From Tetradesmus obliquus (taxonomy: Eukaryota > Chlorophyta > Chlorophyceae > Sphaeropleales > Scenedesmaceae): a stretch of 64,000 bases of DNA. Positions 9,397-50,284 of the stretch are shown one piece after another. The stretch's first letter is position 1, and each line of letters begins with the position of its first letter. A program made the translations under genes and the position numbers. Location: contig CP126191.1 in NCBI GenBank assembly GCA_030272155.1, positions 3,618,501 to 3,682,500 of the forward strand, given 5' to 3'. The notes beneath the pieces are model-generated. The model worked only from the letters and a program-made list of their open reading frames with translations. It had not been told where the DNA came from and made no database searches.

Positions 9397-10855
9397 TTCA
9401 GCCCCGGATCATTCAACTGTGACAATGGGGTCTGCGTGTGCCCTGCTGGCACCCAAGACTGCAACGGACTCTGCGTGGATGTGTCGAGCGACCTGGGAAA
9501 CTGCGGACGCTGCGGCAACGTGAGTGCCAGCCTGAGCACCTGACCGCTGCCTGCAGCTCTGCAGTTTGGTTTGCAGTCGTGCAGGATCTTGGTCTGTCTC
9601 AAACCACGATGTTTGAGAACTACACCAGATGCCTTGACATGGTTGTGATACCGCTGCCGCAGGTGTGCCCCTTCTCTCAACAATGCAGCAGCGGTGCCTG
9701 CCAGTGCCCCAAGCCTGCCAGCCAGACCTTCTGCGCAGGCCGCTGCGTCGACATACTCAGCAACAGCGCCAACTGCGGCAGCTGCAGCAACATCTGCAGG
9801 GCCAAACAAGCCTGCATTGCCGGCACATGCGTCTGCAGCCAGGGCCTCACTGACTGTGGCACATGTGTGGCAGCCAGCAGGGATCCCAACAACTGCGGCA
9901 GGTGCGGCAACCGCTGCAACCGCTCGCAGGTGTGCGAAGGCGGCGCCTGCAAGTGCCCTGACGGCCAGCTACTGTGCAACGGAGCCTGCACAGATGTGGC
10001 GAAGTCCATCCGGCACTGCGGCGCATGCAGCAACACCTGCCCCTTAGGTGAGCGGATGGGGCCTGAATTATGTGCACTACAGGTGATCCAGCAGGGTGGA
10101 GCTTGTGGTGACGTAGCATCCTGCACTGCTGAGAAGGGTAGCACGCCACTGTTAAAGCTGGCACTTCACATTGAGGCTCCAGCCCACCTGTGTGCACGAC
10201 ATGTGGGCATGCTGCGTGCTGGTCGGAACGAGTGGCGTTGGCTAGCCTACTGCAGCACTGATCTAGCTGTAACAGTAGCCTGAGGCACTGGTTCTGCAGT
10301 CCCCGCCCACAGTTCCATGCGCGACAGTGCTTGAACACAACAGTGTTTTCTTGCATGTGCTGCTCGCAGGCAACCAGTGCATTGCTGGCAGGTGCACCTG
10401 CTCCTTCGGCTTGACGCGCTGCAACGGCATCTGCACAGACACAGACGCGGTGAGCAGCATGCTGCACACACAGCAGCAACAGCGGCGCTGTTTCCGTTGC
10501 GCACACCATTCTGACTAGAGCCAATCATTAGCAGTATACTCTGGCCACCTAGCACACGCCAACTACGCAACTTGCCTACACGCAGCTGCTGCTGCTCGAC
10601 CAGTTCCCACCGTCTTCAAATGTTGTTTCCTCAGGCTTGGCTGTTGGCACGCTGGTTGCTGCTGTTTCGATGCTGCTGCCGCATGATGGCACCTGCTCAA
10701 GCTATGCCTGCTTGTTGCACTGTTTGCAACTGCAGGATTACCTCAACTGCGGGCAGTGCGACAACTCCTGCCAAGGCCCTCAGATCTGCTCCAATGGCCG
10801 CTGTGTATGCCCACCTCTGCTCATCCAAAGTGGCAACCAATGTGTGCGCCCGTGA
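7897..10855 (+). CDS. Secreted cysteine-rich protein with tandem STIG1-like repeats
   Basis: Nine exons: 7897-8015, 8199-8272, 8500-8554, 8739-8939, 9179-9208, 9402-9519, 9663-10047, 10370-10449, 10736-10855; 393 residues. A second in-frame ATG at 7930 (MRGLVLTACCC) begins just before the hydrophobic signal peptide and may be the true start. The mature part is a series of Cys modules of the type C-x-G-x-C-x-D...N-C-G-x-C-x-N-x-C...Q-x-C-x-x-G-x-C-x-C. NCG repeats several times, for example NCGRCDN, NCGRCGN, NCGSCSN, NCGQCDN. This spacing resembles stigma-specific STIG1 domains (plant secreted peptides that bind cell-surface lipids or receptors); an EGF-like assignment is less good. No membrane anchor is seen at the C-terminus (ends NQCVRP). 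Intron 5 ends in (CTG)12. The role is unknown; an extracellular or wall location is inferred. Confidence 0.85.
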
Positions 10856-36396: not shown

Positions 36397-41391
<4,995 letters not shown>

Positions 41392-42422: not shown

Positions 42423-42789
42423 ATGGCTCGCCTCCAGACGGCCGTGATCGCTCTGGCGCTTTTTGGTCTCCTGGCATGTGTCAGCGCAGGTGAGCTAGCA
42501 TGCCTTTGCCTGAGATCGCTTGCGCGCCAGGCCAGCTGCTGCTGCGCTCGCCTTCTGACCCGAGCTCCCCTTATGACGTTCGAGACTGCACCTTACAAGC
42601 TTAGCTTGTCCATTATAAATAGGATTGTTGAAATGCAGGAAGCACCTTTCTCGATCGACCAGCCTTCCAGCCTCCTCTATTGCAGTAGTTGATCACCACA
42701 GACAGATGCACGTGAGACTTTCATTAACAGCATCAACCTCTTTCCATTTCAAGATTCCTTCCATTCAAATTTGTTGCTGCGTCTTGCTG

Positions 42790-42820
<31 letters not shown>

Positions 42821-43183
42821 ATGCTTGCTGCAGAGTCACAAACAGGCAGGAAGATGCTGGGCTGGGACTGGCCCAACGCACGTGTGACCACCCCCCTCGG
42901 CAAGGTCAACGTGAGGCCATACAGCTGGAACGTGCAGAACATTGTTGGTGGCAACCTGCTGTTCCCCAACTGGTGGGTGTCCGGATTCCCTGAGGCCACC
43001 GGTGCCCGCAAGCTGCTGGGCTGGGACTGGCCCAACGCACGCGTGACCACCCCCCTCGGCAAGGTCAACGTGAGGCCATACAGCTGGAACGTGCAGAACA
43101 TTGTTGGCGGTAACCTGCTGTTCCCCAACTGGTGGGTGTCTGGGTTCCCTGAGGCCACCGGTGCGCGCAGGCGCAGCCAGTAA
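42423..43183 (+). CDS. Small secreted protein with two 53-residue tandem repeats (gene A)
   Basis: Two exons: 42423-42489 and 42834-43183; 138 residues. Exon 1 codes only the signal peptide (MARLQTAVIALALFGLLACV). The intron is phase 1 and ends with a (CTG)9 tract shortly before the acceptor. The mature protein is almost nothing but two copies of a 53-residue unit (DNA 42848-43006 and 43007-43165). Each begins RKMLGWDW or RKLLGWDW and ends FPEATGA, with aromatic-rich middles (YSWNVQN, LLFPNWWVSGF). No Cys, no membrane anchor. The repeats differ by only a few bases. RK at each unit start is a possible dibasic processing site. I know no family. The neighbours at 45142 and 49312 share the architecture. 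Confidence 0.85.
42793..42819 (+). repeat. (CTG)9 tract before the acceptor of gene A
   Basis: Nine CTG units near the 3' end of the only intron, 14 bases before the acceptor at 42833. Confidence 0.9.
42848..43165 (+). repeat. 159-bp coding tandem repeat, two copies
   Basis: Copies at 42848-43006 and 43007-43165, in frame, nearly identical at the DNA level including third codon positions (for example cgtgtgacc vs cgcgtgacc). Confidence 0.95.
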
Positions 43184-45141
43184 GCCACTCGCAAGCTTCT
43201 CTTGATGGCCAGTCCTGATGAGTAGCTTTTGAGCTGTGTGTGCATCTTTGTTTGTGTGTGTTTCTTTGTAGCAGTAGGAACGTCAGGTACTGTTGTATAT
43301 AATCTCTGGTCAATCATCATGCACTCGCCCTGGCTAATCAGCAGCTGGTGCCAGCACATCCTGCTTCACCCCTGCCGCTGTTGATGGTCATGAGTCACAC
43401 ATGCTCTGATGCATATCGTGATGGGAGCATGCACGTCAACAAATGTAGTTGACTGATAGTACCATGGCATGCCAAAGTGTATGGTGTTTATCATGGAGCA
43501 TTTGTATGCAGTCCCAAGTGTGTCTGGCCGCTGTCATGTCAGCAACACCAGCTGTGTGCTTGCGGCATACCTACAGGCGGCACACATTTGGTGCCAGCTC
43601 TTTGATTCCCCCTGATTGGAGCAATGCCACAGAAGTTGTGGTGCAGCTGAGTATTCTTTGTTGTGCAGTCAGCATGCATGGTGGTTGTGGATGCAATAAG
43701 TGCATGCTCTGCTACCTGCTGTCATGGTTGCCAACAGAAGGCTTGTACAAACATGTTTGTAACAAGCTATTACACCTTGAAAGGCTGTCTATTGAAAGAT
43801 TTGTGCCTTATAGTACCCATGCAGCAGGCACCTGCAGCATGCTGCCAGCACAATGTACATGCCTTTGCAGGATGCGTGTCTTGAAACAGCTAGCTAGCTG
43901 AAGCACAGCAGCTGCAACACAGAAGGCAGCGCATACGATGCAGCAACTGTATAGCTTGACTTCTGCCTGAGCAGGAAAGCCGAACTGCACACACAGTGTA
44001 CGCTATGCACATAACAACAGCTGCAGGACAGCAAGCTACGGTCAGCACTGCACTGCAGCGGTGCAGCTTGCTTCAACCTTGCTGCTCTGGATGCGCAGGA
44101 GTCCCCCGACATGTCCGGCCTCCGGATTTGCAAATGAAAAGCTGAACACAGCTGCAGGGCTCCGCCTCTCTCAGAGATGTCATGCGGTTGCCAGGCTCTA
44201 GCTAGTGCCATGCTGACAGCAAGGATCCATTCACAGGCAGCCAGGATCCCTGCCACAACAGCCAAAATAAGTTTGAAGGCAGCCAGGATTTATGTAAAGC
44301 CAGCCAGGTCAGATCCTGCAGGATTCATGTCAAACCAGAAGTTCCTCGACCGCACCCAAGTGGCGCCTATAAGGGATGTCTTACAACAGTATGCAGTGCA
44401 GTGTTCGTAGCATGTCGTGCCACGAAGATACATCAGCACCGATAATGCTGTGGACTAGATGCTTCAGGGGGAGGTCGCCGATAGGACTGCTCAGTGCAGC
44501 TGCTCAATGCAGCTGCTCGTGCAGAGCTTGTCTGGTACAGCAGCGGGATGCCGGTAGTTGCACGTGGCACATGGGCCTTTTATAAGGCGTTGTTACTGTA
44601 CCAAACCACAAATCATGTCTTGGAATCAACTACACATGGTTGTGGTGGTATCTGGAAATTTACCGCGAAAAGCCCAATGGCGTGTCAGTGCTCACGTCGA
44701 TAACATTGTAAGCATTAATGTTCCATGCTCCGTATAAAGTATAGTTGGAATCTACATATACAACAATCTCAAACGGTTCTTATGAGAAATCATCACGTTG
44801 GCCAACAGCACAGGTGGTGATCCAGCCAGTGATCTGCGCAGCGGCGTGCAGACACACACGGCAAAAAGGTAATCTATATTTCATCGTAGCTTTCTACACA
44901 GCTGTAGCAGCGCTGCACACTCTTATCGTGCAGGCATCGTACCAACGTGGTGGTTGCCGTGTGCACTGCAACAGCTGTAGAAGCACGTGCTTTGTGAGCG
45001 CAACATAGATTTAAACGCAAGTGATTTGACACTACAATACAGATCACTACGAGTCCCTGAATCAACCTTTGATGTGCTCGTCTGCCTGACATCTGTTGCT
45101 GTACATTGCGCCACTTCACAGAGATCACTGAAGCTTGCAGC
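43184..45141. other. Intergenic region between genes A and B
   Basis: 1.96 kb. No recognisable coding sequence. A short block of imperfect cagccaggat repeats lies at about 44236-44315. A tataaag at about 44733 is too far from gene B to be its TATA box. TGTAA near 43758 may end gene A. Confidence 0.35.
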
Positions 45142-46850
45142 ATGGCAAGGAGGACGCCAGCTCTAGCAGTCTTTTGTTTGGTTGCGGCAGCATCACTGCA
45201 TCATGCAGCCGCAGCTTCGACCCTTGGTGAGTTGCTTGTCAGGCAGCAGGCAGCTCAGCTGAGCAGTCCAGCATTACTGCTGGCCAGCATGCGCTGCCAA
45301 CCACGCCCAGCTTCCACTCAGACGGCGTGCAGTTGTGCAGCAGCTTAGCAACTGGTATTGCATGATATGTGAAGCATTGACACCTTTCCTTCCACTTCAT
45401 ATCTCACAAGCAAGGCAGCAAGCAGTGCTCATGCCCAACATGCACGTAAGACAGCACATAACAGCCTCATTCCATGCCACCTGTCTAGCTCCGCCATGTG
45501 TCCACTTGCTGTTGCTACTGTTGCCTCTCTCCTGCACCTCGCTGCCTGCAGGGCGCCGCGGCCTCCTGCAGGACCGCATTGGCATCAAATCCACAAGGAG
45601 CTTCGAGGCCCCTCAGGCAACACGCTGGTCTGTTGGCAGCCACACATCTGCCAGCGGCCCTGCTGTCTTCCGCACTACTGCTGACTTCACAGGCCCTCAG
45701 CCCCCGAGTTTTGCAGTGGGCGTAAACCCCTCTGCCGGTTATGCAGACGTGCAGACCAAGACACGCATGGATGCCAGCCAGCCCATTCCTCAGCACAGCA
45801 TGCGCGCTGGCGCGTATGCAGGCAACAACTTTGTCGCAGACGTCAGCCTTGGTGGCAGGATCACCCCGATAGCAACAGGCCAGATCAAGATCAGGCCGAC
45901 TGCGCCAGTGACACTGCCCACATTCAACTTTGGTGGCAGTGTGCTGCCTACCTACAGGGAGCAGATGGTGATCAACCCGAGGGCACCACGCCCTGCTGAG
46001 GCAACTGCTCCGAAGAGGTAAGTTGGCAGCAGCCTGCACGCACTGCTTTGTGAGAGGAGTGTGCTGGCGATAGTATGTGACTTTAGCAGCTGAGAGCTGC
46101 TTGCCTAACAAAATTGTAGCAGTTACACTTGTCTGCAGCACTAGACCAGGGACCGCTGCGCGTAGTGTGTGCCGTGGCAGTCAGTACAGAGAGGCTGATA
46201 GGCTTGTGGCAGCAGTACCACAGCATGTGCCTTGACTGGACAACTGCAGCTGCAACGCCAGGCTGCAGGCAGCAGCCTGGTGGCAGGTTTGTTGAGCCCT
46301 CTGTGCACTGTTTGACAAGAGCTGCTGCTGCTGCTGCTGGTGCCGCTGCTGCAGGCACCTGCTCAACTATGGCTACAACTCAGAGCTCACTGCCCAGGCG
46401 CCCTCCACACCCCAAGTCAAGGTCAACTACAAGCCCACACCAGCAGTCGTGTCATCGAGCACAGCCATCAGGTCTGAGCGGCCAAGCGTGGTGGTCGAGC
46501 ACAATGTGCCTGGTGCTGTTGTGACGGCATCAGGCACGACAGACGTGAAGATTGCCCCGCAGCGCACCTTCCCGCGGCCCCCTGGCAAGGGGTCATGGAC
46601 CATGGTCAACCTCAGCCGCCAGCCAAGCACTGTCAGCGTTAGTAACGAGGTCAACATCAATTGGCCGAGCAGCACTGTCACTGTCAGCGGCAACAACCCG
46701 CTGAGTGCCAGGAGTGACTTTGAGGCGACAACCTTCAACCCTTTGAAGGCGCTTGATGTGTCTGTGCGGCCTGAAAACCTCGGCGCCCGCCCTGACGGCT
46801 TTGTGCAGCGCACCAGCAATCTGAATGTGCCAATTCCTAGTGGCAAGTAG
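45142..46850 (+). CDS. Secreted protein of the same architecture, non-identical halves (gene B)
   Basis: Three exons: 45142-45226, 45552-46017, 46355-46850; 348 residues. Exon 1 codes a signal peptide (MARRTPALAVFCLVAAASL) and ends in phase 1, as in genes A and C. The mature chain opens with GRRGLLQDRIG. At the exon 2/3 junction stands KRHLLNYGYN, so both exons start with a dibasic-plus-Leu motif. The rest is rich in Val, Thr, Ser, Pro and Asn with short beta-like strings (TVSVSNEVNINW, TVTVSGNNPL, VKIAPQRTF). No Cys in the mature part and no anchor. An extracellular, beta-rich protein is inferred. No family recognised. Confidence 0.8.
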
Positions 46851-46883
46851 AAAGCAGCTAGCCGTGCACTGGAATGGGCCGGC

Positions 46884-46886
<3 letters not shown>

Positions 46887-46934
<48 letters not shown>
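46887..46934 (+). repeat. (CAG)16 tract in the gene B 3' UTR
   Basis: Sixteen CAG units starting 37 bases after the gene B stop codon, in transcribed sequence and outside any intron. Confidence 0.95.
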
Positions 46935-46936
<2 letters not shown>

Positions 46937-49173
46937 CTGTAGTTTAATCAAAGTAACAAAGCAAGCTGAAGCAAAGTGATGAGTTCAATTGTTCTGCTAG
47001 CCGTCAAGAACCACTGTGTGTGGGCAACTTTGCACGGCAAGCTCTTGGGATGTGGTTTGTGAATTTAGTAGTTTGGGGGCAGCCACAGCACGGTAATCAT
47101 CATTGAATGTAGCATGAATCAACTAGTGCAGGGCAAGGCATGACATTTTTGTGTGGAAGGGGGGCGGCGGAGGGGAGATCAGGACTTGTGTTGGGTGCAG
47201 CTCTTAGTTTGTTGTCAGTAGTGGTAATTGTCAGCACAACAGCTCCACGTGTGTTAGGTTTTGTGTCCTGTGGGCAGTGCAAGCATGCAGTATGATGACA
47301 GGTGCCATGCACTCCTTCCCCAACAGCTTGCTTACTCAATGTACCAGTTTGTTGTTGCTCAAGAGTACACAGAGCAGCCGAATGCACGCATGCACGCATC
47401 CGCTTGTGCAGCCTTCAGCAGTGCTGCGACTGCTGGACAAAACCAGCTGCCAGCACGCAGCCTTCGTGATGCATCAGAACCAAGTTTTCAACATTCAATA
47501 TAGTTCATCATCAGCCTATGTGTATGTGGTACGGCCGCCAGCAGTAGCAGCAGCAGCAGCAGCAGCAGCGCCGGCGGCGGTGGCGGCAGCAGCGGCTGCG
47601 ACAACAAAAAAACAGCAGGCATGGGCGGCGCCGCGGTGTGCCGTTGAAGCACTCGACTGCAGTGAAGGAGCAGTGTTTGACGCCATGGATGCCCACTGCC
47701 TGTTTTGCAGCACCATAGCTCAGCTACGGAAGTTCCGTGCAGTCGCTGTTATGGCTTGATTGGCATTGTAGTGATGATGTGGATGATGGATTTCCTTGCA
47801 TAAGCTTGTAACTGGAAGGTACCATTCAACTGGCTGAGGAAAACTCGAGGTCTGTGTCACATAACAGAGACCACCCAATGGGCCGTCCGACCGGACACTG
47901 TTGTTGGCATGACGGTCAGGCATTGCTTCACTGCCCACCACTTCCTGCCCATACTATCGTCAACCCTAGTGTAGAAGGCTGCTGTTCAAGGTATTTGCGC
48001 ACCAGTAAAAGCAAGCGGTGAATCTACAGTTCGTTGCTGAACATTGATTGACCAGTACTGCAGCGGCACAAGCCCGCCCGGTGCGCAAGAGGTAGCAGAC
48101 ATAGTTGCTGCTGGAGTGTCTGTTGACATCGTTTCAAGGGCGCTAGGCAGAACTGCCTGCAGGAGCAAGTTGCCTGGCTGCTGTTGCAAGTGCTGGCGCA
48201 GCAGGCCTGCAGCAACTTGCTGCCAGGTTGAACCTGGCCGATGCCAATGGCTCCAATCAACTGTGCAATGACTTCCATCAAATTCAGAGCCTGCATCAGT
48301 AAGGAACTTCAGCTGCGAGTGTGACAGTTCAGGTGGCATGCAGTCCATATGTTGTGCCCCAACTGGACTACAGCTGAGGTGCACAGCCTGGGCATGGCAG
48401 CGCCTGGAAATCACATCGCAGGCGCACTGTGCAGCATGGACCTGACAGACAGCTCATTGGTAACGTAAGATCATCGAATTTGTCCTTGTGTCCGTTTGCC
48501 TTAGTCAAGGCGCCGTCTCCAGGCGAGCTACTTGGACATGTCCTAGGGTTGCAGTATCTGGCCACCTGCTGCTGTCGGGTGCGCATCACGTGATGACCAA
48601 TACAAGAGATCCCCACGAGCAGAATAGTAAAATAATTCTTTTTAATTCCGGCGGTCAAAAAAGCAGGCCGTCGCCTGCTGCCAAAGCTCTCGGTGAGTCA
48701 ATGGAAACTACCACGAAAGCGAGCTCGGAGCCCGCTCAGACCCGCGTGTCCCCGAAAACAAAAGTCAATATTCTTTTAAATTTATTTTGTTGCCATACAA
48801 GCAAAATTCGTTGACTGTTGGCGCGGATCAGCCAGGAATCTAAGCAGTCACAGTAACATTCCCTCGCTACGTGTGCGCGATAAAGACCGTGCACCTCTGG
48901 TTGCCCCATAGACCCCTTCTGCTTTGCAGCATACATCGTGAAGTCACGGCGTCAATCTTGTAGCTACGTCGCCACACCTGCGCAGTCGTTGAGTCTTCCT
49001 GGAAGCGCTCCTTACCTTCAGGTACCTCAATAGCACTTTAAGCATTGAATTAAAATAGTTCAGCATTGCTTGCAGTTGCTGCGGTGTTCTGGTCGGTCAG
49101 CTCAAGTTGCATACAGCAGTAGCCAAACCACCCAGGCCACGCAACCACCTGTTCATTGCTGCCATTGTCTCTT

Positions 49174-49179
49174 TATAAA
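49174..49179 (+). promoter_or_regulatory. TATA box candidate of gene C
   Basis: tataaa in the context ctttataaaatg, 138 bases before ATG 49312. Transcription starting about 30 bases downstream would exclude the in-frame ATG at 49180 and leave the signal-peptide ATG as first start. Confidence 0.5.
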
Positions 49180-49311
49180 ATGTCTATAGAGTCTGATCAT
49201 GCTTTGCCTGGCTCACGTCACTCAAACACACCGCTGGCTTTTCTGGCGATGTTCGATGTCACCGCAGGCAAGAGAGCCAAACAGCTCCTCGACAGCAGGT
49301 CGTCAGGCACG

Positions 49312-50284
49312 ATGAAGGCCACAAAGATTACAATTATGCTGGTTTTTGCTGGCATGGTTGTGAGCGCAGCAGCAAACGGTGAGCAATTGCCTCGTCCAGC
49401 GAACTCATCTCACACCGGTCATGCACTATGGTTGCTTGCATAAGACACGCCAAACAGGTTATATCAATACAGCTTATTCGTTGTTCGGCAGTCTGGATCA
49501 TGTGTGTCACCACAGCTAGGCACATGAGGGTCAGCCCTGACATCCCTTCCCTAGACGTGCGTGTGCCGATGCTTCAGCGAGCAGTTCAGCGACGAACACC
49601 AGCCCTCAAAGCACGCTGTATGAATTTAGCATGCACTTTGCTGCGTGACAAGTTCAGCTGACTCTGCTTTCTCCTGCTGTTCCTGCTGCTGCTGCTGCTG
49701 CGCCATCAGGCCGTGAGCTCAACCAATATCCTACAGTCACCATTGACTCCCCCAAGACCATCCCCAGCATTGCTGGACCCACCTTCAAGTTCGGCTACAA
49801 GAACGGTGTGGGTGCGTTCCAGGGCTGGAACGGTGGCCTGGAGCTGCCAAAGACCATCGACCTGGGAGGTGTGCGTGTCACCCGCCCCATCCTGCGCGGC
49901 CGCAAGCTTGCCCAGTACCCCACCGTGACAATCGACTCCCCCAAGACCATCCCCAGCATTGCTGGACCCACCTTCAAGTTCGGCTACAAGAACGGTGTGG
50001 GTGCGTTCCAGGGCTGGAACGGTGGCCTGGAGCTGCCAAAGACCATTGACCTGGGAGGTGTGCGTGTCACTCGCCCCATCCTGCGCGGCCGCAAGCTTGC
50101 CCAGTACCCCACCGTGACAATCGACTCCCCCAAGACCATCCCCAGCATTGCTGGACCCACCTTCAAGTTCGGCTACAAGAACGGTGTGGGTGCATTCCAG
50201 GGCTGGAACGGTGGCCTGGAGCTGCCAAAGACCATCGACCTGGGAGGTGTGCGCGTCACTCGCCCCATCCTGCGCGGCCACTAA
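49312..50284 (+). CDS. Small secreted protein with three 63-residue tandem repeats (gene C)
   Basis: Two exons: 49312-49378 and 49710-50284; 213 residues. Exon 1 is 67 bases, the same length and phase as in gene A, and codes a signal peptide (MKATKITIMLVFAGMVVSAA). The mature part begins GRELNQ and then has three near-identical units, the last slightly shorter: 49727-49915, 49916-50104, 50105-50281. Each unit runs from YPTVTIDSPKTIPSIAG through FQGWNGGLELPKTIDLGG to VRVTRPILRG. Units are joined by RKLAQ, a dibasic site. No Cys and no anchor. The composition suggests repeated beta hairpins. An upstream in-frame ATG at 49180 would hide the signal peptide behind 44 residues and is rejected because of the TATA box. 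No family known. Confidence 0.87.
49727..50281 (+). repeat. 189-bp coding tandem repeat, three copies
   Basis: Period 189 bases, in frame. The copies differ by only scattered silent changes (for example atcgac vs attgac, gtgcgttcc vs gtgcattcc). The last copy stops 12 bases short and ends in His-stop. Confidence 0.96.

Follow-up and report, generated by a model that had tools for sequence, protein, structure and literature searches.

Three neighbouring genes of the green alga Tetradesmus obliquus (Chlorophyceae, Sphaeropleales, Scenedesmaceae), here named A, B and C, carry the motif R-x-[LM]-x at the head of every unit or exon module that follows their predicted signal peptides. They lie in a 64,000-base stretch of DNA (the window) within contig 1 (11,144,458 bases) of the 104.66-Mb, 17-contig genome. 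An earlier note on this DNA had pointed to a basic/Leu motif at the openings of the three mature proteins; R-x-[LM]-x also stands before every internal unit, which that note had missed, and it is therefore likely to be a cleavage site. The best account, to which we give a probability of about 0.6, is that A, B and C encode secreted polyprotein precursors which would be cut at RxLx sites by an enzyme of the site-1 protease (S1P) type and whose products would most likely be of wall or matrix type.

Gene structure and unit layout

Genes A (42423-43183), B (45142-46850) and C (49312-50284) are neighbours on the plus strand and encode proteins of 138, 348 and 213 residues, respectively. Each opens with a short first exon (67, 85 and 67 bases) that ends in phase 1 and is directly followed by GTGAG, and the stop-free frame of exon 2 reaches 43183 in A, 46017 in B, where exon 3 (46355-46850) follows, and 50284 in C. 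The signal peptides were called by judgement from hydrophobic cores. The gene models bear out the positions, strand, exon sizes and phase 1 exits that had been given for the three genes, and the claimed openings GRKML (A), GRRGLLQ (B) and GRELNQ (C) are present, which supports the shared design of a phase-1 signal exon followed by a basic/Leu motif. The label "repeat-type" in the earlier note holds for A, with two identical 48-residue units at a period of 159 bases, and for C, with three identical 59-residue units at a period of 189 bases, but not for B, which contains no repeat and whose later exons are two unlike modules, B1 and B2. The features are as follows, all on the plus strand.

42423-42489, plus strand: gene A exon 1, predicted signal peptide MARLQTAVIALALFGLLACVSA, phase 1 (gene model; like the start in P0009)
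42834-43183, plus strand: gene A exon 2, ESQTG-RKML, unit 1, RKLL, unit 2, basic tail GARRRSQ and stop (gene model, relatives, unit alignment)
42848-42859, plus strand: A proposed cleavage site 1, RKML before GWDWP (unit-head alignment, motif scan)
42860-43003, plus strand: A unit 1, 48 residues (unit alignment)
43007-43018, plus strand: A proposed cleavage site 2, RKLL before GWDWP (unit-head alignment, motif scan)
43019-43162, plus strand: A unit 2, same protein as unit 1, with 5 synonymous differences (unit alignment)
45142-45226, plus strand: gene B exon 1, predicted signal peptide, 85 bases, phase 1 (gene model)
45552-46017, plus strand: gene B exon 2, module B1, opening GRRGLLQ, with site RGLL at 45557-45568 (gene model, motif scan)
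46355-46850, plus strand: gene B exon 3, module B2, opening (K)RHLLN, with the intron interrupting the Arg codon (gene model, motif scan, C17 relative)
49312-49378, plus strand: gene C exon 1, predicted signal peptide MKATKITIMLVFAGMVVSAAAN, phase 1 (gene model)
49710-50284, plus strand: gene C exon 2, three units, then stop (gene model, repeat analysis)
49712-49723, plus strand: C proposed cleavage site 1, RELN before QYP, not dibasic (unit-head alignment, motif scan)
49724-49900, plus strand: C unit 1, 59 residues, with a synonymous difference from units 2 and 3 in each of the first 7 codons (unit alignment)
49901-49912, plus strand: C proposed cleavage site 2, RKLA before QYP (unit-head alignment)
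49913-50089, plus strand: C unit 2 (unit alignment)
50090-50101, plus strand: C proposed cleavage site 3, RKLA before QYP (unit-head alignment)
50102-50278, plus strand: C unit 3, then H and stop (unit alignment)

Exon 2 of A starts with ESQTGRKMLG, of which ESQ was set by comparison with relatives: likeness begins at ESQ in P0008 and P0011, whose frames enter from an intron-like Leu-rich stretch, and likewise in P0009, in which the signal peptide is fused in frame and the start resembles exon 1 of A. The deposited model of C (OEZ86_011171, P0002) contains all of C plus an extra N-terminal stretch ahead of the signal peptide, and the model starting at 49312 looks better.

R-x-[LM]-x is conserved at the unit heads

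Relatives were collected by one protein search per gene, which gave 7 proteins for A, 6 for C and 3 for B; counted among these are P0007 and P0002, both from the window itself, as well as the near-identical P0014 and P0015 (P0014 being the strain copy of B), some relatives are metagenome fragments, and the alignments are shallow. Searches of the own genome found no further places beyond the genes themselves for C (E 0.001) or A (E 10), and one place for B2 at E 10, on C17, which is 43% identical over 81 residues. At that place (C17:3039445-3040257; L006, L007, L008) the B2 relative stands directly behind a 76-base phase-1 signal exon of its own, with the head GRVLLN, and sequence similar by eye to the remainder of B2, in part as repeated copies, lies at about C17:3040788-3041218.

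In the A family, 12 unit heads were found by GWDWP in 7 proteins, and all 11 complete ones (one is truncated) have R-x-[LM]-x immediately ahead of the unit core; in the C family, 17 heads were found by Q[YF]P[ST] in 6 proteins, one again truncated, and 16/16 complete heads follow the same rule. Without P0007 and P0002 the counts are 9/9 and 13/13. Arg at P4 together with an aliphatic residue at P2 is thus present in 27/27 complete heads of the two families and in 2/2 of B, where the units of one protein are copies and the heads are not independent events. The surrounding positions vary: the A family uses RKML, RKLL, RELQ, RRLL, RSLL, RHLL, RRLQ and RQLQ, the C family RELN, RKLA, RDLK, RKLQ, RELQ and RKLN, and B has RGLL at B1 and RHLL at B2, with RKLL in the B1 relative P0016 and RVLL in the C17 gene, so that P3 is occupied by K, E, D, R, H, S, Q, G or V and P1 varies too. 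Mature A, B and C contain seven R-x-[LM]-x sites, each of which stands at the head of a unit or an exon module. The chance of finding the motif in the first 10 residues, a length picked after the motif had been seen, is 2.9-3.9% per module, with a product over the four modules of 1.4e-6.

These heads could instead be read as dibasic sites, cut by a kexin- or prohormone-convertase-like enzyme, trimmed by a carboxypeptidase and, at the ILRG-RK sites of C, amidated at the C-terminus, as has been proposed for Chlamydomonas peptides. We consider this rather unlikely. It would account for every dibasic pair in mature A, B and C being confined to unit heads or the A tail and for G-RK at the internal heads of C; the genome has Cu2_monoox_C matches at 5 places, their PAM identity being putative, and 80 Peptidase_S8 stretches, counted per exon piece and not per gene, and the C. 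reinhardtii genome is described as encoding convertase-like subtilases, one of them in the mating secretome (PMC6313938). However, at the first head C and its relatives have R-E or R-D in 5/5 complete cases, one of which is the window's own, and this acidic P3 indicates that the conserved element is R-x-L rather than a basic pair. Likewise, RELQ, RQLQ, RSLL, RHLL, RGLL and RVLL retain R and L with neither K nor R at P3, and a six-frame genome search, which an intron-split domain could escape and which had no eukaryotic positive control, found no P-domain (PF01483). Off the heads, the relatives have dibasic pairs as KK in P0012 and P0013 and as KR in the P0002 extension.

Tandem units are under selection and mostly alike within a gene

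The sites that vary between unit copies are synonymous in 5/5 cases in A and 11/11 in C, all of the latter being third positions, whereas random change would be expected to be synonymous in about 23-31% of cases, and the unit copies are thus under selection beyond chance. The unit protein of A and C is held by purifying selection. As the copy differences are all synonymous, the plus strand frame is also favoured over the long antisense open reading frames that overlie A and C. Seven of the 11 variable sites of C fall on the third positions of codons 1 to 7 of unit 1 (window 49724-49744), beyond which unit 1 is nearly identical to units 2 and 3, and these seven codons look like the edge of a gene-conversion tract.

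Eleven proteins, counting the window's own, have two or more complete units; within a protein, these units are identical in six cases (P0001, P0002, P0004, P0007, P0008 and P0010) and match at 44/48 residues in P0009, 47/48 in P0011, 57-58/58 in P0003, 54/58 in P0005 and 57/58 in P0006; between proteins, the matches are 35-45 of 48 in the A family and 44-57 of 58 in the C family. Within a gene, the unit copies have mostly stayed alike, and their number changes, from three C units in the window to four in P0001 of Scenedesmus sp. NREL 46B-D3. A tandem repeat by itself means little, as 18 rows of tandem arrays with a period of at least 90, some of them overlapping, were found in 204,181 bases outside the window.

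Near-identical units might also suit structural wall or matrix proteins that stay uncut, with the units functioning as one chain and R-x-L being the remnant of a propeptide site that was copied with the unit and could spread passively through duplication. This is unlikely, in our judgement, because R and L are retained while their neighbours vary, at internal heads as well, and because B carries the motif at two unlike exon modules.

Proposed processing and candidate enzymes

Under RxLx cutting, a secretory-pathway subtilase of the S1P/SBT6.1 type would act after signal-peptide removal and cut after R-x-[LM]-x at each unit head, which would release two identical peptides of ~50 residues from A, three identical peptides of ~60 residues from C and two different chains of ~150-160 residues from B. 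The expected products are Cys-free and net basic. A gene for such an enzyme is present: an S1P-like gene on C1 matches MBTPS1_3rd at E 3e-34 (stretches in C1:5265086-5265668, minus strand), with Peptidase_S8 stretches upstream of this match that carry DTG, GHG and SGTSVASP in that order, and MBTPS1_3rd matches were found in 0/14 control genomes. In PDB, a 65-residue piece of this gene had site-1 protease chains as its best matches (E 2.6e-23), the next subtilisins following at ~1e-6. The genome also has a glutaminyl-cyclase gene, which fits the invariant Gln that stands after each proposed site of C and would head each C peptide. In plants, AtS1P/SBT6.1 and SBT3.5 are reported to cleave RxxL/RxLx, and the cut in PROSCOOP12, TGRRLM/GSGASG, is close to TGRKML/GWDWPN of A (PMC13082318).

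Outside the cell, the products would most probably serve as peptides of the wall or matrix that are required in large amounts, with signalling as second choice; the wall or matrix role appears the likelier because the products are identical, conserved and made in several copies. Mating factors tend to diverge fast between species, whereas the units keep 70-94% identity to the window unit in A relatives and 78-94% in C relatives. The view, hinted at in the earlier note, that the freed peptides are signals or mating factors, which concerns their role only, is compatible with RxLx cutting and overlaps in its odds with the best explanation, is therefore improbable, although the layout resembles that of multi-copy pheromone precursors (PMC7329392) and strong conservation is what a receptor ligand would be expected to have.

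Origin of the three genes and known families

The mature bodies of A, B and C had been described as unlike and of no known family, and both statements stand. Common descent of the bodies was tried by hhalign, using the shallow alignments of the modules and 40 column shuffles for each pair, with nothing convincing: the real score was matched by 1 shuffle for A-C (score 16.6, 11 columns), 2 for C-B2, 12 for C-B1, 20 each for A-B1 and B1-B2, and 34 for A-B2. The A-C and C-B2 profile matches are not convincing and we do not take them as homology, and a TP..G..RP pattern that looks alike by eye in A and B1 found no support in the shuffle test. The proposal of the earlier note that the genes are an old tandem array with fast-diversified bodies is not supported, the bodies being without convincing relation to each other and conserved in relatives, and the exon design recurring in the unrelated gene L037, so that the shared design is no proof of common descent.

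For A, B, C and the six relatives tried, no Pfam match above the cut-off was obtained, and searches of NCBIfam and PDB (the latter with the B strain copy P0014 only) gave only matches below cut-offs or with E near 1. PF16127, a precomputed tag on P0001, was taken as chance, with C scoring 19.5 of 25 bits, below the cut-off, and the family not listed for P0001 at E 0.1. The Pfam listings for A, B and C up to an E of 1 included no pherophorin domain model, and viral contigs searched with P0004 and P0009 gave no relative. The C relative P0004 is labelled "aconitase B" in its JGI record, a name that is evidently wrong.

Signal exon and GRxLL head elsewhere in the genome

L037 (C16:4355209 region, minus strand) is a Cys-rich unrelated gene in which a 73-base phase-1 signal exon is followed by a GRSLLQ head (GRSLLQTGLTCEVATGC). 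It is one of 9 places found by a genome scan for an acceptor followed by GRxLLQ, and it has a convincing signal exon by script, whereas L032 has only far and weak candidates and six others none by script; the backward control gave 0 places, a ratio of which no use is made because this control does not match the CTG/CAG-rich composition. L036 (C16:4118491 region, minus strand), also among the nine, has a signal-like start by eye, an acidic stretch and then GRKLLQ, and looks like a propeptide with an RxLL site.

A signal-exon scan of 268,181 bases gave 47 candidates, recovering B and C and missing A. An early R-x-[LM]-[LQNAKM] was present in 6/72 in-phase versus 0/145 out-of-phase readings, the six being B, C, the C17 gene and three that look spurious. 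Eukaryotic genes commonly have phase-1 introns close to the signal cleavage site. The combination of a phase-1 signal exon and GRxLL may be a layout that secretory genes of this alga share more widely, which the signal-exon scan is too crude to show.

Elsewhere in the window, a run of ~44 perfect GAT triplets at 40612-40744, which would encode poly-Asp in one frame, gives way to TGG triplets, and an open frame with Cys-rich repeats (CGSCSNICRAKQACIAGTCVC...) at 9423-10283 is perhaps another secreted protein.

Observations that weigh against RxLx-cleaved precursors

Several observations count against the account of A, B and C as RxLx-cleaved precursors. The number of RxL is not above that of shuffled sequence (p 0.17 for A, 0.40 for B and 0.06 for C), and the strength of the R-x-L evidence is in its position and conservation, not its number. 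R-x-[LM]-x also occurs outside the counted heads, in P0009 (overlapping a head), P0010 (in the tail), P0016 (RILPD) and P0002 (in the doubtful upstream extension), and most internal heads are dibasic as well, so that a dibasic protease may yet be involved. Homogenisation within genes, seen as identical units in 6/11 proteins, is not general, and one unit of P0005 is closer to P0004 (57/58) than to its own partner (54/58). The candidate signal exons show no excess of phase 1 (22, 15 and 10 for phases 0, 1 and 2), most of them being probably false. AlphaFold models were uninformative, with a mean predicted local distance difference test (pLDDT) of 35 for A and 25 for C.

Comparison with known precursor systems

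The substrates of land-plant S1P/SBT6.1 and SBT3.5 (proRALF23, PROSCOOP12 and CLEL6/RGF6) are likewise secreted and have RxLx/RxxL before the released part, whereas the source cited does not present them as made of identical tandem units, each with its own site (PMC13082318), and no sequence relation to A, B and C was seen. Diatom silaffin Sil1p, silacidins and cingulins are secreted repeat precursors with R-x-L at unit ends, as in the A and C families (PMC4557024, PMC5525289), and the unit-end RRIL and RRNL of silaffin are reported to be missing from the mature peptides (PMC4557024). These RXL wall precursors belong to another lineage than T. obliquus. We know of no silica wall in this alga.

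Fungal Kex2-processed repeat proteins (KEPs), like A and C, combine a signal peptide with near-identical units separated by basic sites and are defined by three or more repeats, each of 8-100 residues and flanked by KR/KK/RK/RR sites (PMC7329392); unlike in KEPs, the invariant in A, B and C is R-x-L and not two basic residues, and C has 3 units but RE at its first head, A has 2 units and B none. Within the chlorophyceans, the candidate amidated-peptide precursors of Chlamydomonas and the pherophorins are secreted proteins with convertase-like sites, and the word "repeat" does not occur in the main text of that study (PMC6313938). For the cell wall itself, a Scenedesmus obliquus wall proteome assigned ~0.1% of spectra and gives 12 wall proteins by accession, description and length, one of which, from Scenedesmus sp. 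NREL 46B-D3, has 252 residues and no Prosite hit (PMC11839794); P0001 has 262 residues. Among the best-ranked papers on green-algal R-x-L or secreted repeat precursors, judged by title and start of abstract, none dealt with A, B and C or with RxLx repeat precursors of green algae.

Implications

We put forward, as a tentative idea that may well prove wrong, that chlorophytes run an S1P/RxLx secretory peptide system in which tandem-copy polyproteins release identical conserved peptides, with the phase-1 signal exon and R-x-L-L head as its genome-wide mark. If true, it would be a green counterpart of the diatom RXL and fungal multi-copy peptide precursors and would extend to chlorophyte algae the S1P-type processing of precursors that is known for peptide hormones of land plants. 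R-x-L-x at unit heads would then link unrelated secreted genes of one green alga, and the rule would help to locate precursor peptides in the genomes of green algae; for A, B and C, the R-x-L-x model predicts exact peptides that could be sought by mass spectrometry.

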